From contig NZ_AQXY01000030.1 of the NCBI RefSeq assembly GCF_000376845.1, positions 1 through 64,000 of the forward strand: 64,000 nt of DNA, given 5' to 3'. Positions within the stretch are counted from its first letter, which is position 1. Every line of letters begins with the position of its first letter. The position numbers and the translations under genes are program-made. Positions 2,254 through 8,394 of this stretch are shown here, piece by piece. Source of the DNA: Thioalkalivibrio sp. ALE14 (lineage in GTDB: Bacteria > Pseudomonadota > Gammaproteobacteria > Ectothiorhodospirales > Ectothiorhodospiraceae). A model generated the notes under the pieces. That model did no database searches. It worked only from the letters and a program-made list of their open reading frames with translations, and was not told the origin of the DNA.

Positions 2254-3159
2254 TCAACCGTCCAACGCGTTCTCAATGGCAGCCTTGTATACGTCCGCGG
2301 CCGGCAACGTAACGTTATTGAATGCCTCTTGAACTTTGTACACGGTCGTTGAATGTGTCGCGTCGTGCGTCAAAGGGATGACGCCACCCGTCTGTGGTGC
2401 TTGGTCAGAACTGTGGCTGTACACCATAAATGTAATTGAGGCAGGCTGGAGTGCGTATGTCACAAGTCCTGCCTGCCCGCCTAGGCGGTCCATGATGCGC
2501 TGATAAACGGGTTGCGGGCAGACAAAGAAAAGACCCTTCTTACACAGCGACTCGCGCTGGAGGACCTGCCCTTTGTAGATTAGCTGAGGAAGAATGCGTT
2601 TATTGACATTCTCCCAGTTCAATCCGGCCCCGGTTTTTTCGTCAGTGCGACCGTTACTTAGGGCGTCAAACCCTTTCCGATAGCTGCCGGTCGTATCTAT
2701 ACTTTGAACTTCGACGGCTACAAACTCTTCTAGGCTTCCAGTGCCGTCTAGTTTCGCAAGAACCCAATCGACAAAGTAGCTTCCTCGACCGGATTTTTGA
2801 GGGAGTCGAAGCTCCCCCCCCCAGCGCTGGCCAAACACCGCAACGCATGGTCGTCCCGTTTTCTTTGCATGAGATCGAGCTTCGCGCCCTGGCAGCAAAT
2901 CAAACCCTGGGCCAAATGCTTGATGCGTCACATCGCGGAGAATTTTGTAGTTCTCCGAATACAGGCGAACGGGGCAACAAATTACGGGTCCTGACTTAAT
3001 GGGCTTGATCGTGCAGACGCCTGACGTTACACCATTGTTGAAACGTTTTTCGCAATCACCCTTAAGGATGGGGCATTGCCCGGCTTGAAAAGCTTGCACA
3101 GCGTTATGGGAGGTGTCATTAGCTCGATAGCCAAAGAATTCCCAAATGTAGCTCGCCAT
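2254..3159 (-). CDS. NotI-like type II restriction endonuclease
   Basis: A 301-residue protein resembling the NotI restriction endonuclease family (Pfam NotI). It has a cysteine-rich N-terminal part (C29, C36, C49, C61, C62), matching the family's Cys4 iron-binding fold. A PD-(D/E)XK-type centre follows with E116, D131 (SYFVDWVLAKL) and E150-x-Q152 (FVAVEVQSID), where Q replaces the usual K. Its ATG shares one base with the stop of the cytosine methyltransferase upstream (TGATG), so the pair is translationally coupled with the methyltransferase made first, as expected for a restriction-modification operon. The recognition sequence cannot be read from the protein; NotI's GCGGCCGC is only a hypothesis. 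Lower GC than the core genes fits transfer. Confidence 0.82.
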   Translation of the reverse strand: MASYIWEFFGYRANDTSHNAVQAFQAGQCPILKGDCEKRFNNGVTSGVCTIKPIKSGPVICCPVRLYSENYKILRDVTHQAFGPGFDLLPGREARSHAKKTGRPCVAVFGQRWGGELRLPQKSGRGSYFVDWVLAKLDGTGSLEEFVAVEVQSIDTTGSYRKGFDALSNGRTDEKTGAGLNWENVNKRILPQLIYKGQVLQRESLCKKGLFFVCPQPVYQRIMDRLGGQAGLVTYALQPASITFMVYSHSSDQAPQTGGVIPLTHDATHSTTVYKVQEAFNNVTLPAADVYKAAIENALDG

Positions 3160-4400
3160 CAGATGGCTCGCATCAAATCAGAGGTCGACCGCCCAAGAAC
3201 GCGCGCGAGCGACCTTCCGATAGCAGCCGCCAGAAGAGGCGGTACCGCGTTGCCCACTTGCTCATATTGCTCTACACGCGACCCCACGAATCGGAAGGTA
3301 TCAGGGAAAGTCTGGATGCGCGCCGCCTCGCGCACGGTGAATGCGCGATCTTGATTGTAATGAAAGTAAGAGCCCCAGTGAGGGTCACACTTAGTGAGAA
3401 TGGTTGAGGCCAAACCATCTGGATCCACTCTTCCGTACCTGCGGGTATGATCAGTCCTTCGGGCTCTTTGCATGCCTTTCGGCAATAGATGGAATGGGAT
3501 TTGGGTCCAGTTTCCACCTGGAGAAATATGCTGCATGCGCTCGAGGTTAAGGCGGCTGAGTCGCGCCGCGGAATGATTCATCACCTCCGCGGAACCGGCC
3601 CGCATCATCTTTTGGAAGTCATTCTGGGGCGGGAGGCGATACGGACTGCCTTCCGGAGAAGCCTCTCCGTTCTGAAGGATGGGAAGATCGTCGATCGCAT
3701 CACGGACCGTAGTATGAGGGGGCAACTCGATTGTGTCGGGGATGGTAACGATGTTTCGCCCAGCAAACTTTGAGGTGAAATTCACGCGAAGAGGGGCAGA
3801 GCGAACGGGTATAGGGAATGCATCGTCCACACTAACGTGATCTCGGAGGCCAAGCACGATCGTGCGCCAACGGGTCTGTGGCACTCCAAAGTGAGGGGCA
3901 TAGAGGATTCGGACGTCGGACGCGTAACCATGGTTGGTGAGAGCTGCAAGGATCGCGCCTAAGGTATCGCCCCCCTCGTATGAAACCAGACCCGGCACAT
4001 TCTCGATCAAGACCGCGCGAGGCTGGAACTCGTCGACGAAGCGGAGAAAGTCTTTGAATAGGTGATTGCGCTTGTCCTCACTGGAGCGGACAGGGGCGTT
4101 AATGGAGAAGCCCTGGCAGGGTGGGCCACCGGCGAGTAAGTCAAGATCCCCACGATTCAAGCCGAGACGGCTGCGAACAGCCCGGGCATCCACTGACCGG
4201 ATATCTGACGTGTCAACGATGGTCTCAGGGTGGTTGATCGCGTAAGTCTGTGCGTACCTCTCCTCAATCTCATTGGCGTAGAGCGTCTGCATCCCCGCCT
4301 CATGAAGCCCCTCCGATAACCCGCCCGCACCCGCGAAGAGGTCGATCATCGTGAGCGAGGGAGGTTGGGACTCCGCAGCGGTGCTTCGCAACTTAGCCAT
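3159..4400 (-). CDS. DNA (cytosine-5-)-methyltransferase, partner of the NotI-like nuclease
   Basis: A 413-residue C5-cytosine methyltransferase. Family motifs appear in order: motif I DLFAGAGGLSEGL (from residue 20) for S-adenosylmethionine, motif IV GGPPCQGFS with catalytic C95, motif VI ENV (133-135), motif VIII QTRWR (175-179) and motif X QVGNAVPP (about 381-388). The target-recognition region lies between VIII and IX (about 190-340). It should methylate the site cut by the endonuclease encoded directly downstream. The start ATG is followed by MAKLRSTAAES; the ORF is complete. Confidence 0.93.
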   Translation of the reverse strand: MAKLRSTAAESQPPSLTMIDLFAGAGGLSEGLHEAGMQTLYANEIEERYAQTYAINHPETIVDTSDIRSVDARAVRSRLGLNRGDLDLLAGGPPCQGFSINAPVRSSEDKRNHLFKDFLRFVDEFQPRAVLIENVPGLVSYEGGDTLGAILAALTNHGYASDVRILYAPHFGVPQTRWRTIVLGLRDHVSVDDAFPIPVRSAPLRVNFTSKFAGRNIVTIPDTIELPPHTTVRDAIDDLPILQNGEASPEGSPYRLPPQNDFQKMMRAGSAEVMNHSAARLSRLNLERMQHISPGGNWTQIPFHLLPKGMQRARRTDHTRRYGRVDPDGLASTILTKCDPHWGSYFHYNQDRAFTVREAARIQTFPDTFRFVGSRVEQYEQVGNAVPPLLAAAIGRSLARVLGRSTSDLMRAI

Positions 4401-4711
4401 CGTGTTACCCCTTTTCCCGTGGTCGGAGCGTCGGGCGCCCGCATGAGCGTGGTTCGTACCGGGAGGAAGTGTAAGGGGTCGGAGCCATGAGTGCCACGAT
4501 GCTCGGAGGCCGAAGCACGGTCAGAAAGCAACACGGAGTGCGTGCCGGTGCTGCATGGGGCCTTCCCGCGAGAACCGTGACAGTCACGCCTCGTGAGTGT
4601 GACGTTGTCGGATCGATTTCTGAAAAACAGGGCGCGACCATTCAGGGATTCCAACGGAATTTGGTGTCGATCCCGAGCGACCATACAGTCGCCCCTCCAC
4701 AGGACCGCCCT
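4401..4711. other. divergent promoter region between methyltransferase and relaxase genes
   Basis: 311 bp separating the leftward restriction-modification operon from the rightward relaxase gene. An in-frame upstream extension of the relaxase is open from 4487 but lacks family similarity, so I treat this stretch as regulatory. The most structured element is the palindromic pair at 4576-4604, listed separately. Confidence 0.45.
4576..4604. promoter_or_regulatory. operator-like palindrome and partial repeat
   Basis: CGTGACAGTCACG (4576-4588) is a perfect palindrome around a central A. Three bases later CGTGAGTGTGACG (4592-4604) repeats the first five bases and ends in GACG. The 16-bp start-to-start spacing and the position between divergent genes suggest a site for a regulator of the restriction-modification genes or relaxase. 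No regulator gene for it is obvious nearby. Confidence 0.3.
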
Positions 4712-6544
4712 ATGCTGCGCTTGTTTCGCCGTCGAGAGCCTGCTTCACATACGCCACCGAGCACGCCCCGCGAAGGCCTGCTCCCCGTCCTGACACCCAA
4801 CGACCTGCTGCAGCCACCCCACCGCCAAGCGCTCCTGCGCCAGATCACCGGCCTGCTCGCACTCCCGTCGGAGTGCGCCGAACGGTATATCGCCGCGAGC
4901 CTGCGCCAGTACGCGGCATTCGTCCAGGCAGTACCGGCGTCCGAGGTGCACCATCACTCCGGTCGTGGCGGCATGCTGGACCACGGCCTCGAAGTCGTGC
5001 TCAAGGCGCTTCAAATTCGCCGGGGATACGTCCTGCCACCCGGGGCGGAGCCCGAGAGGCTGTCACACGAGGCGGATGCGTGGTCCTACGGCGTCTTCTC
5101 CGCCGCTCTGCTGCACGACGTAGGCAAGCCCGTGGTTGACCAAGAGATCGTCCTGTACGACGCCGTTGGCAACCGCCTGGGGCGCTGGGAACCCTGGCAC
5201 GGGCCGATGACCGAGCGACCGGGTGCGCGCTGGTACTCCGTGCGGTACAGGCGCGGTCGCGCTCACAAACTTCACGAACCGGTATCCAGTCTCGTCGCGC
5301 ATTGGGTCCTGCCGCCGGAAGGCATGTCCTGGATCGCTCAACACCAGGAATTGCTGCAGGCGTGGATCCATGCAATCCACGGGCAGATGGAGGATGCGGG
5401 GGCGCTGGGACAGATCATCCTGCAGGCCGACCGGGAGTCGGTGGCGCGGAACCTGGGTGGCGAATCACCGGACCGACTTCCGACGCCCACGAAGCCGCTT
5501 CACGAGAAGTTGATGACATCGCTTCGACACCTATTGAGCAGCGAAGATCTGCCGCTGAACCGCAACGGGGCGGCAGGCTGGCGCACGGAGTCGGATCTGT
5601 GGCTCGTGTCGAAGCGTGCGGCCGACGCGCTGCGGGCACAGCTCCGCGAGGAGGGGCATTCCGGTATTCCTTCAAACAACGACCGGATCTTCGACACACT
5701 GCAGGAGCACGGAGTGCTGACCGCCAATGGGGACCGCGCCATCTGGAGGGCCCGGGTTGCCAGTGACGGCTGGTCGCACGAGCTGACTCTGATCCGCCTG
5801 CCGGTGGCCCGTCTCTGGTCCGACCCCGAGACGATGCCGACGGAGTTCGAGGGTTCCGTGACTCCGCTGGGCGAGGCATCGACCGAGGAGACAACGGAGC
5901 CTGGCGACGGAGCGACAAGCCGCCCTGCACCGGAAGAAGTGGCCACCCCCGCAGCAGAACCGCCCGCGGCGAGGAGCGTCGCAATCCAGACGGGGCAGTC
6001 TGGCGAGGTGGCGGAACACCACTCGCCCCCCGGCCCGCCCGTATCCGCCGGCGTTGACGATCTGCCACTCCCGCCGGGTCTCGACGATGCCCTGGATAAA
6101 ACCACTGACGAACCGACGGCCGAGCCACCACCGCAGCCGATTCCGTCCTGCGATACGGGTGCGGACACTCCCCTGTCTGAAGACCCGGGCGACGCCTGTC
6201 TCGAATGGATCCGGCGAGGTGTCGCGGACGGGTCGCTCCTGGTGAACACGCGAGAGGCCCGGATCCACGTCGTCGCCGAGGGCGTGCTACTCGTCAGTCC
6301 CGCGATCTTCCGCGACTTTGCGAGTGCGACGGGCCACGCATGGAACACCGCTCAGAAGCGCTTTCAGCGGTTACAGCTGCACGAGAAGTCCTCAGAGGGC
6401 ACCAACATCCATCGCTATGTGGTGAGGGGCGAACGCCAGACCAGCCGGATCAACGGTCTCCTGATCCGCGACGTCTCCGTTGTCTTCGGTCCGGACTGGA
6501 CACCCTCACCCAACGACCACCTGACACCCGCCGTCGAAGCGTGA
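4712..6544 (+). CDS. MobH-family relaxase (TraI_2 domain)
   Basis: 610 residues from ATG 4712, preceded by AGGA at 4701-4704. The N-terminal half is a TraI_2 domain, the HD-type relaxase of MobH conjugative elements: HHHSGRGGMLDHGLEVV (H80-H82, D90-H91) and AALLHDVGKP (H135-D136) supply the metal-binding histidines and aspartates. A long Pro/Glu/Thr-rich linker (about 380-490) leads to a C-terminal TraI_2_C domain (about 495-605). It would nick at oriT to start DNA transfer. The open frame continues upstream to 4487, but the MLRLFRRREP start fits family starts better. Together with the integrase 570 bp downstream it marks the end of an integrative conjugative or mobilisable element. Confidence 0.85.
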   Translation: MLRLFRRREPASHTPPSTPREGLLPVLTPNDLLQPPHRQALLRQITGLLALPSECAERYIAASLRQYAAFVQAVPASEVHHHSGRGGMLDHGLEVVLKALQIRRGYVLPPGAEPERLSHEADAWSYGVFSAALLHDVGKPVVDQEIVLYDAVGNRLGRWEPWHGPMTERPGARWYSVRYRRGRAHKLHEPVSSLVAHWVLPPEGMSWIAQHQELLQAWIHAIHGQMEDAGALGQIILQADRESVARNLGGESPDRLPTPTKPLHEKLMTSLRHLLSSEDLPLNRNGAAGWRTESDLWLVSKRAADALRAQLREEGHSGIPSNNDRIFDTLQEHGVLTANGDRAIWRARVASDGWSHELTLIRLPVARLWSDPETMPTEFEGSVTPLGEASTEETTEPGDGATSRPAPEEVATPAAEPPAARSVAIQTGQSGEVAEHHSPPGPPVSAGVDDLPLPPGLDDALDKTTDEPTAEPPPQPIPSCDTGADTPLSEDPGDACLEWIRRGVADGSLLVNTREARIHVVAEGVLLVSPAIFRDFASATGHAWNTAQKRFQRLQLHEKSSEGTNIHRYVVRGERQTSRINGLLIRDVSVVFGPDWTPSPNDHLTPAVEA

Positions 6545-6632
6545 GCCAGCCGTCTTGCCCGGATAGTTACAGGCATGTGACACGGGAGGAATACCGGGAT
6601 ATTCTACACGGCTTATGGGGGAATAATAACGA

Positions 6633-6644
6633 CCGAATATTCGG
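6633..6644. promoter_or_regulatory. 12-bp perfect palindrome upstream of the csrA-like gene
   Basis: CCGAATATTCGG lies 56 bp before the csrA-like start in a 155-bp A/T-richer spacer that also contains the related sequence ccgggatattc at about 6595. The pair suggests an operator or a folded leader. No binding protein can be named. Confidence 0.3.
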
Positions 6645-6699
6645 AAGCACTACAGAGGGATCTGGCAACCAGGCAAGGAAGCAAGGAGGAGGATAAGGA

Positions 6700-7011
6700 A
6701 TGTTGGTTTTGACCCTGAAGGACGGGGAAGCGCTGTACGTGGGGGATAGCGCCCTCCTGGTCGCGGTGCAGACCCAGGAAGCACCCCTTCGACTGTCGGC
6801 ATGTGCGCCCGGTCTCAATATCGAGTGGGACACCGCAGGCAGCCGGATCACACTTCATCACCCGGACGGTCCTGTCCGGATGGAGTACGTCGACCATCGC
6901 AAGGCGCGCCTTGGCATCGAGGCCCCCGAGAGCGTGGAGATCGTGCGCGAGGCATTGCGGGAACGACGTCAATCCTCCCAGGAAATTTCGGCTCCATCGC
7001 AAACGGAGTAG
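6700..7011 (+). CDS. CsrA/RsmA-like protein with an internal insertion
   Basis: 103 residues, against about 61 for CsrA. The N-terminus MLVLTLKDGEALYVGD matches CsrA strands 1-2, and RLGIEAPESVEIVREAL (70-86) matches strands 3-5, including the RNA-binding arginine (R83, equivalent to CsrA R44). About 45 residues (24-68) are inserted between strands 2 and 3, where the Pseudomonas RsmN protein also carries an insertion. It probably binds GGA motifs in mRNA leaders and regulates translation. Its place between relaxase and integrase suggests control of the mobile element, as with CsrA paralogues on Legionella ICEs (inference). A strong purine-rich RBS (aaggaggaggataagga) precedes ATG 6700. Confidence 0.7.
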   Translation: MLVLTLKDGEALYVGDSALLVAVQTQEAPLRLSACAPGLNIEWDTAGSRITLHHPDGPVRMEYVDHRKARLGIEAPESVEIVREALRERRQSSQEISAPSQTE

Positions 7012-7115
7012 GCGGTTTCACTGCTGAATCCGTAAGGTCGCGCGCCTGGCAGGGAGACCGTGTGCTAACTTCAGTGATGCCAGGGGCGTGACTTGAACCC
7101 GTTACAGGGGAGGGC

Positions 7116-8054
7116 ATGCCCGCGATGGAAACCCACCGCACCCTCGACGACCTGGTGCAGATCTATCTGCGCGAGCGGATTTTGCGGCCCGATACCGCCA
7201 TCCGATACCAACAGGTTGTTCGACAGTTTCAAAACGACATGGGCGTCAGGACGCTGGACGAGATTCAGCGCGACACGCTGCTGGAATGGCGCAGCCAGGT
7301 CCTGCAGCGCGCCCGCGCGACGACCTGGAACTACTACCGTCGCCATTTCCGCGCGATGTGGCGCTTCGCCATGGAAGCGGAATGGATCAGCCATGACCCC
7401 CTGGAACGGGTCGATGCGGCTCCTGAAGATCGGCGGATCAAGACCGTTTCGCGCGACCTTCTGGATCAGGCGATCGCGGCGCTCGATGATTCCGAGAATC
7501 GATGCCTTGAGCCCCGCTGGTTCTGGCTCGTGGTGCTGCTCACCTTCTACTACACCGGTATGCGACGGCGGCAACTGGTGGCACTGACCTGGGGCGATGT
7601 GTGCTGGAAAGAAAGCGAGCTGCGGCTATCAGCAGCGGGATCGAAAACCCACCGAGAGTGGGATATTCCGATCCCCGCGCCCTTGGTGGAGCCGTTGCGG
7701 GAACTCTATGACCGGACCATTGCGCTACGCGGCCCCCGGGGCCTTGAGCAAGCGCAAGTGTTCAACCTGGGCCTGCACCGTGGCGAAACGCGCTACCAGG
7801 GCGACGGCATCCGAGTAGGACAGGTCAGCGGCTTTTTCCGGAAGTTAGGCGAGGTACTGGGACAGCCCATTTCGCCGCACCGTCTCCGGCATACGCTGGG
7901 GACCGAGGTGGGGCGTCAGGAGAACCCTCCGCTTCGCGCGCTGCAGCACCTGCTGGGACACACCAACCTATCGACTACGATGCAATACGTCGAACCCGAT
8001 ATGGGGCAGCTGCGCCAGTTGGTTGACCACCTTCCCCAACCGGGCCGGTCCTAG
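7116..8054 (+). CDS. tyrosine recombinase / integrase
   Basis: 312 residues with an N-terminal SAM-like core-binding domain (about 8-95) and a C-terminal catalytic domain. Active-site residues are R150 (YYTGMRRRQL), K177 (AAGSKTHR), H255-x-x-R258 (HRLRHT), H282 (LLGHTN) and nucleophile Y291 (TMQYVE). Lacking an Arm-binding domain, it resembles XerC/D-like element integrases. The gene ends 264 bp from the 3' end of tRNA-Thr, the usual place for an integrase whose target is that tRNA. The start ATG 7116 follows AGGGGAGGGC; the ATG at 7125 is an alternative. Confidence 0.9.
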   Translation: MPAMETHRTLDDLVQIYLRERILRPDTAIRYQQVVRQFQNDMGVRTLDEIQRDTLLEWRSQVLQRARATTWNYYRRHFRAMWRFAMEAEWISHDPLERVDAAPEDRRIKTVSRDLLDQAIAALDDSENRCLEPRWFWLVVLLTFYYTGMRRRQLVALTWGDVCWKESELRLSAAGSKTHREWDIPIPAPLVEPLRELYDRTIALRGPRGLEQAQVFNLGLHRGETRYQGDGIRVGQVSGFFRKLGEVLGQPISPHRLRHTLGTEVGRQENPPLRALQHLLGHTNLSTTMQYVEPDMGQLRQLVDHLPQPGRS

Positions 8055-8318: not shown

Positions 8319-8394
8319 TGGTGCCGGCGAGAGGAGTCGAACCTCCGACCTATCGATTACGAATCGATTGCTCTACCAACTGAGCTACACCGGC
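8319..8394 (-). tRNA. tRNA-Thr (anticodon CGT)
   Basis: 76 nt read on the minus strand with encoded CCA. The acceptor GCCGGTG pairs with CGCCGGC (one G-T), the D arm is GCTCAGTTGGTAGAGC, the anticodon stem ATCGA/TCGAT encloses the loop TTCGTAA, and the T arm contains GGTTCGACT. Its 3' end faces the integrase, making it the probable insertion target of the mobile element. Confidence 0.96.

Follow-up and report, generated by a model that had tools for sequence, protein, structure and literature searches.

The window analysed here, a stretch of 64,000 nucleotides from the soda-lake bacterium Thioalkalivibrio sp. ALE14 that starts at base 1 of contig C30, carries a small csrA-like gene (6700–7011, forward strand) between the genes for a MobH relaxase and a tyrosine recombinase, and an earlier sequence-only reading had rightly placed it there, on a MobH conjugative element. 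The relaxase (4487–6544, forward strand; TraI_2 and TraI_2_C domains, 358 bits against NF041494, with a further match to TIGR03760) has its likely start at 4712, the orthologue of strain ALJ16 starting at the equivalent methionine, while the integrase (7116–8054, forward strand; Pfam Phage_integrase, E = 7e-20) is followed by the tRNA-Thr(CGT) gene that forms the attachment site (8319–8394, reverse strand). Cargo genes on the reverse strand encode a C5 cytosine methyltransferase (3159–4400; Pfam, E = 1e-65) and a NotI-like restriction endonuclease (2254–3159; Pfam NotI, E = 9e-9). The order relaxase, csrA-like gene, integrase and tRNA-Thr is identical in four of four strains, and the cargo adjoining the relaxase varies among them, comprising the C5 methyltransferase with the NotI-like nuclease, an N6/N4 methyltransferase or a type I-F Cas3. 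The latter (Cas2-3; L005:231-3422) adjoins the relaxase in the ALJ16 element and presents a case of CRISPR as ICE cargo.

In strain ALMg11, the element is whole: the tRNA-Thr gene (440148–440223) lies at one end and an exact 48-bp copy of its 3' part (491705–491752) at the other, and the 51.6 kb so bounded contain the integrase, the csrA-like gene, the relaxase, methyltransferase cargo, transfer genes and a topoisomerase-like gene. In the genome of the window, a single ICE has most likely been split between contigs C30 and C20, because the 48-bp sequence just described lies at C30:8319-8366 and recurs exactly at G000:C20:46806-46853, the sole full MobH relaxase of this genome is the one in the window, and the PFGI-1-class ATPase (TIGR03744, 1273 bits; 96% identical to that of ALMg11) lies on C20. 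With this class-specific transfer ATPase, the MobH relaxase, the integrase and direct repeats at a tRNA gene, the element belongs to the PFGI-1-class ICEs. In another genome of the order (G013), the tRNA-Thr gene at L094:13198-13296 has the same Fur-like neighbour gene and no adjoining integrase, and is probably an empty attachment site.

The 103-aa open reading frame at 6700–7011 is a real gene and encodes a relative of CsrA. It is directly preceded by a strong ribosome binding site (aaggaggaggataagga), and its product matches Pfam CsrA in two stretches (E = 5.5e-11), scoring 42.7 bits against the curated cut-off of 27 for PF02599; the CsrA equivalog models are not reached (31.9 versus 70.1 bits for TIGR00202, 34.4 versus 73 for NF002469). 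Both ends are of the CsrA type, as had been recognised before, with MLVLTLKDGE at the N-terminus and ARLGIEAPESVEIVREAL, which contains R83, at the C-terminal end. Orthologues of 92–97% identity occur in strains ALMg11 (L003), T. halophilus HL17 (L004) and ALJ16 (L005). Across the four Thioalkalivibrio orthologues, dN/dS amounts to 0.08–0.19 and replacement changes are scarce in both halves; since the gene and the gene order are also kept in the four genomes, this is a gene under selection. A separate canonical csrA is present in the host genome.

What sets this protein apart is its middle part, which the sequence-only reading had described as a 45-residue insertion between strands 2 and 3. 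Extra residues are indeed found, about 39 of them according to the 39-column gap that MAFFT opens in the middle of canonical CsrA; by sequence, however, the segment is a partial internal duplication of CsrA, in which b3-b4-b5-b2 are repeated, rather than a foreign insert. When the protein was cut at residue 47 and each half searched separately against the CsrA profile, the N-terminal half matched CsrA positions 1–37 without a gap (E = 7e-4) and the C-terminal half positions 25–51 (E = 1e-5). A second profile built from 18 canonical CsrAs gave corresponding matches, with window residues 1–37 equivalent to CsrA 1–37, again ungapped, and residues 64–96 to CsrA 25–57. Moreover, after residues 17–40 had been shuffled about 2000 times and the fit of the first half to the CsrA profile rescored, the real score was reached by 3 of 2000 shuffles and beat the remaining 1997. 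As both halves match CsrA with an overlap and the shuffles rarely reach the real score, the chain has two copies each of b3 and b4 but a single b1, and the strand order reads b1-b2-b3-b4-b5-b2'-b3'-b4'-b5'. Copy 1 (residues 1–47; 6700–6840) comprises b1 to b5, and copy 2 (residues 48–86; 6841–6957) comprises b2' to b5' and has no b1'. The RNA-contact residues Leu4 in b1 (codon 6709–6711) and Arg83 in b5' (codon 6946–6948), the latter equivalent to Arg44 of CsrA, occur once each. In copy 1, the position of the b5 arginine is taken by Asp44, so that this strand lacks the RNA-binding arginine, and leucine stands at the position of CsrA Arg6.

Distantly related tandem forms were recovered from further genomes, and most of them are linked to mobile elements (ICE, plasmids, a Tn7-like transposon, a phage), as anticipated from the first inspection of the locus. 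When the order (47 genomes) was searched with a tandem-form profile, tandem proteins were matched over their full length (E = 1e-21 to 1e-42) and canonical CsrA in the C-terminal part only (about 1e-10). A 99-aa tandem CsrA (L095:9967-10263, G013:C9) lies directly after the TnsA, TnsB-like, TniB and TniQ genes of a Tn7-like transposon, which suggests that it is cargo or a regulator of this transposon, and two Thioalkalivibrio genomes contain an 83-aa tandem CsrA-like gene (L094:10759-11010 and L011:263-514) directly 3' of a DEAD-box (rhlB-like) helicase gene, with trxA- and rho-like genes adjoining. Plasmids and phages gave no match when searched by sequence with the window protein, and relatives there were reached with the L010 protein as bridge: a 116-aa tandem CsrA is found on plasmids of Xanthomonas and Stenotrophomonas, and a tandem form also occurs in Pseudomonas phage vsMR. 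On Xanthomonas citri plasmid plB (L063:6001-6634), the tandem CsrA gene is directly followed by a canonical csrA. No tandem form outside this lineage appeared in samples of the class and the phylum (369 and 398 genomes), where a weak match in G517 turned out to be a canonical CsrA. The L017 protein is of similar length, but about 20 of its residues form an insert unrelated to the duplication. A Marinobacter MobH plasmid also has an unannotated CsrA fragment without b1 (L047:6000-6180), perhaps a pseudogene, which adjoins the integrase gene and lies close to the relaxase gene.

Against the profile of 18 canonical CsrAs, the L010 protein matches at 1–40 and 11–53 and the Xanthomonas plasmid protein L045 at 1–30 and 7–58. 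The real score was reached by 2 of 2000 shuffles for L010, 0 of 1999 for the L094 protein and 1 of 2000 for L045; for the phage form, 106 of 2000 did so, a weaker sign of duplication. The strand that connects copy 1 to copy 2 in the Xanthomonas and phage forms could be either b5 or a remnant of b1'. In every tandem form seen, the b5 arginine is confined to copy 2, where R83 is invariant in the tandem alignments, and the single b1 has a leucine at position 4 in all forms except the ALJ16 orthologue, which carries a valine. In a tree of single copies, the copy-1 halves group together (local support 0.87), yet on only about 40 columns, with which a single as well as a repeated origin of the tandem forms would be compatible.

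Structure prediction was in line with a doubled chain. A first AlphaFold run with the four near-identical orthologues reached a pLDDT of 55.7 and yielded nine strands with meaningless Foldseek matches, and a second one, the alignment of which additionally included seven viral canonical CsrAs and in which strand pairing therefore counts as predicted, was of moderate confidence (pLDDT 74, pTM 0.62), again with nine strands (residues 2–5, 10–14, 18–23, 31–35, 40–43, 49–54, 57–65, 70–74 and 81–85). These correspond to b1-b2-b3-b4-b5-b2'-b3'-b4'-b5'. Solved CsrA chains superpose on the second model over 37–38 columns at 1.9 A and are the most probable PDB matches listed (0.69–0.75), yet with E-values above 1, and Foldseek gave no PDB match at E < 0.001. 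Five predicted viral proteins of 88–114 residues, one of them named carbon storage regulator, match the model over nearly its full length with probabilities of 0.92–1.00. Neither model shows an alpha-helix in the extra segment. The proposed analogy to RsmN of Pseudomonas is not supported: RsmN/RsmF is likewise a CsrA relative that is enlarged and has an altered chain path, but its 16-residue insert, between b2 and b3, is alpha-helical, and its docked monomers make up a dimer with two sites (PMC3791407), whereas the extra segment of the window protein is CsrA-like by sequence and modelled as strands.

Each sheet of RsmA is ordered b5A-b2B-b3B-b4B-b1A (PMC3791407), and b2-b5 contacts are inter-monomeric (PMC13287468); the RNA site is composed of b1, b5 and the helix (PMC13287468), with RNA contacts by Leu4 and the arginine (PMC3791407). 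Because b5 of one chain adjoins b2 of the other, a short turn can join b5 to b2' with the sheet kept. The partial internal duplication of CsrA has produced a complete module (b1-b5) followed by a module without b1 (b2'-b5'), and we slightly favour a scenario in which the result is a single-chain pseudo-dimer and one-site GGA regulator on an ICE. Such a chain would fold on itself into the canonical two-sheet architecture of the CsrA dimer with nine instead of ten strands, b5 of copy 1 and b2' of copy 2 forming a hairpin. Leu4 of copy 1 and Arg83 of copy 2 could then build one intact GGA-binding site per chain, and the second site would be lost with b1' and the b5 arginine of copy 1.

With respect to function, E. 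coli CsrA needs both pockets of its dimer to repress glgC fully (Mercante et al., 2009, cited in PMC7652899), and a one-site form may thus serve single-site targets or compete with host CsrA. An option compatible with the pseudo-dimer fold, and differing as to function only, is that the protein has no repressing activity of its own and acts as a decoy, competing with host CsrA for GGA sites or CsrB-like sponge RNAs and shifting the Csr output in favour of the ICE. We consider this possible, though clearly less probable than the one-site regulator: the host contains a canonical CsrA, a one-site form should bridge and hence repress poorly in view of the glgC requirement (PMC7652899), and the plasmid-borne RsmQ is known to take over host regulation (PMC9928087), but the argument is deduced from the loss of residues. 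Even more speculative, and in our view unlikely, would be the extension to a whole mobile-element family of single-chain, single-site CsrAs that act as built-in competitors of the two-site host CsrA and adjust post-transcriptional regulation in the host to favour the transfer of ICEs, plasmids, the Tn7-like transposon and phages.

Alternatively, b1-b2 together with b3'-b4'-b5' of each chain could form an ordinary two-site CsrA dimer, leaving the duplicated middle as decoration or a second interaction surface and arriving by a different route at an RsmN-like solution. The central gap in the MAFFT alignment and the additions tolerated at the same place in RsmN (PMC3791407) are consistent with such an enlarged homodimer; the middle, however, is CsrA-like and continues b1-b2 without a gap, and both models lack a helix there, which makes this arrangement rather doubtful and, to a small extent, harder to sustain than the decoy. 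A decayed CsrA, with the duplication as degenerate by-product and RNA binding lost, is improbable: the missing copy-1 arginine and the leucine at position 6 would fit it, but replacement changes are few in both halves, no form has lost R83, and Leu4 is retained by three of the four orthologues.

That plasmids, phages and ICEs can carry CsrA homologues is well documented (PMC7366521; PMC9928087). The window protein shares with canonical CsrA/RsmA (E. coli CsrA, P. aeruginosa RsmA) the family profile, the MLVLT start, the RLGIEAP motif and the equivalent of Arg44, but differs in its length (103 aa versus about 60), in the duplication of b3-b4-b5-b2 next to one b1, and in having one RNA-binding arginine per two modules. 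CsrT and LvrC of Legionella ICEs are likewise ICE-borne CsrA homologues thought to regulate their ICE (Abbott et al., 2015, as cited in PMC7366521, PMC5413113); the citing passages mention no duplication, and the window gene is distinguished by its position, with the MobH relaxase gene on one side and the integrase gene on the other. Plasmid-borne Rsm proteins such as RsmQ of pQBR103 are also CsrA homologues on conjugative elements, but RsmQ is described as highly similar to RsmA and is apparently not doubled (PMC9928087). In the literature searched, which was of incomplete coverage and without supplementary files, no tandem, duplicated or single-chain CsrA is named. The sequence-only reading had considered an enlarged CsrA on a MobH element little described; ICE-borne CsrA as such was already known from Legionella CsrT, and it is the doubled chains on mobile elements that seem not to have been described before.

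CsrA acts as a dimer able to bridge two GGA sites, and the need for bridging has so far been probed with engineered dimers. If the single-site model is correct, a natural one-site chain under selection on mobile elements would allow the purpose of the second site to be tested in a natural system, and would provide a compact GGA-binding protein with one site as well as a possible route by which mobile elements interfere with host regulation.

The one-site regulator would be expected to bind GGA motifs in transcript leaders, including its own, and, being ICE-borne, could regulate transfer, excision or host genes. The 155-base leader of the csrA-like gene (6545–6699, forward strand) contains 12 GGA versus 7.2 expected, and AAGGA motifs surround the ribosome binding site (6675, 6683, 6695). 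The leader is enriched in GGA in four of four orthologues, which are not independent of each other (9–14 versus 4.6–8.4 expected). This pattern would fit autoregulation and equally an ordinary strong ribosome binding site. Before the relaxase and integrase genes, where GGA motifs had been envisaged, no enrichment was found, and a control of transfer or excision by the csrA-like gene may be proposed from its location on the element. The gap between the csrA-like gene and the integrase gene (7012–7115) harbours an inverted repeat, CCTGGCA...TGCCAGG, which is conserved in four of four strains.
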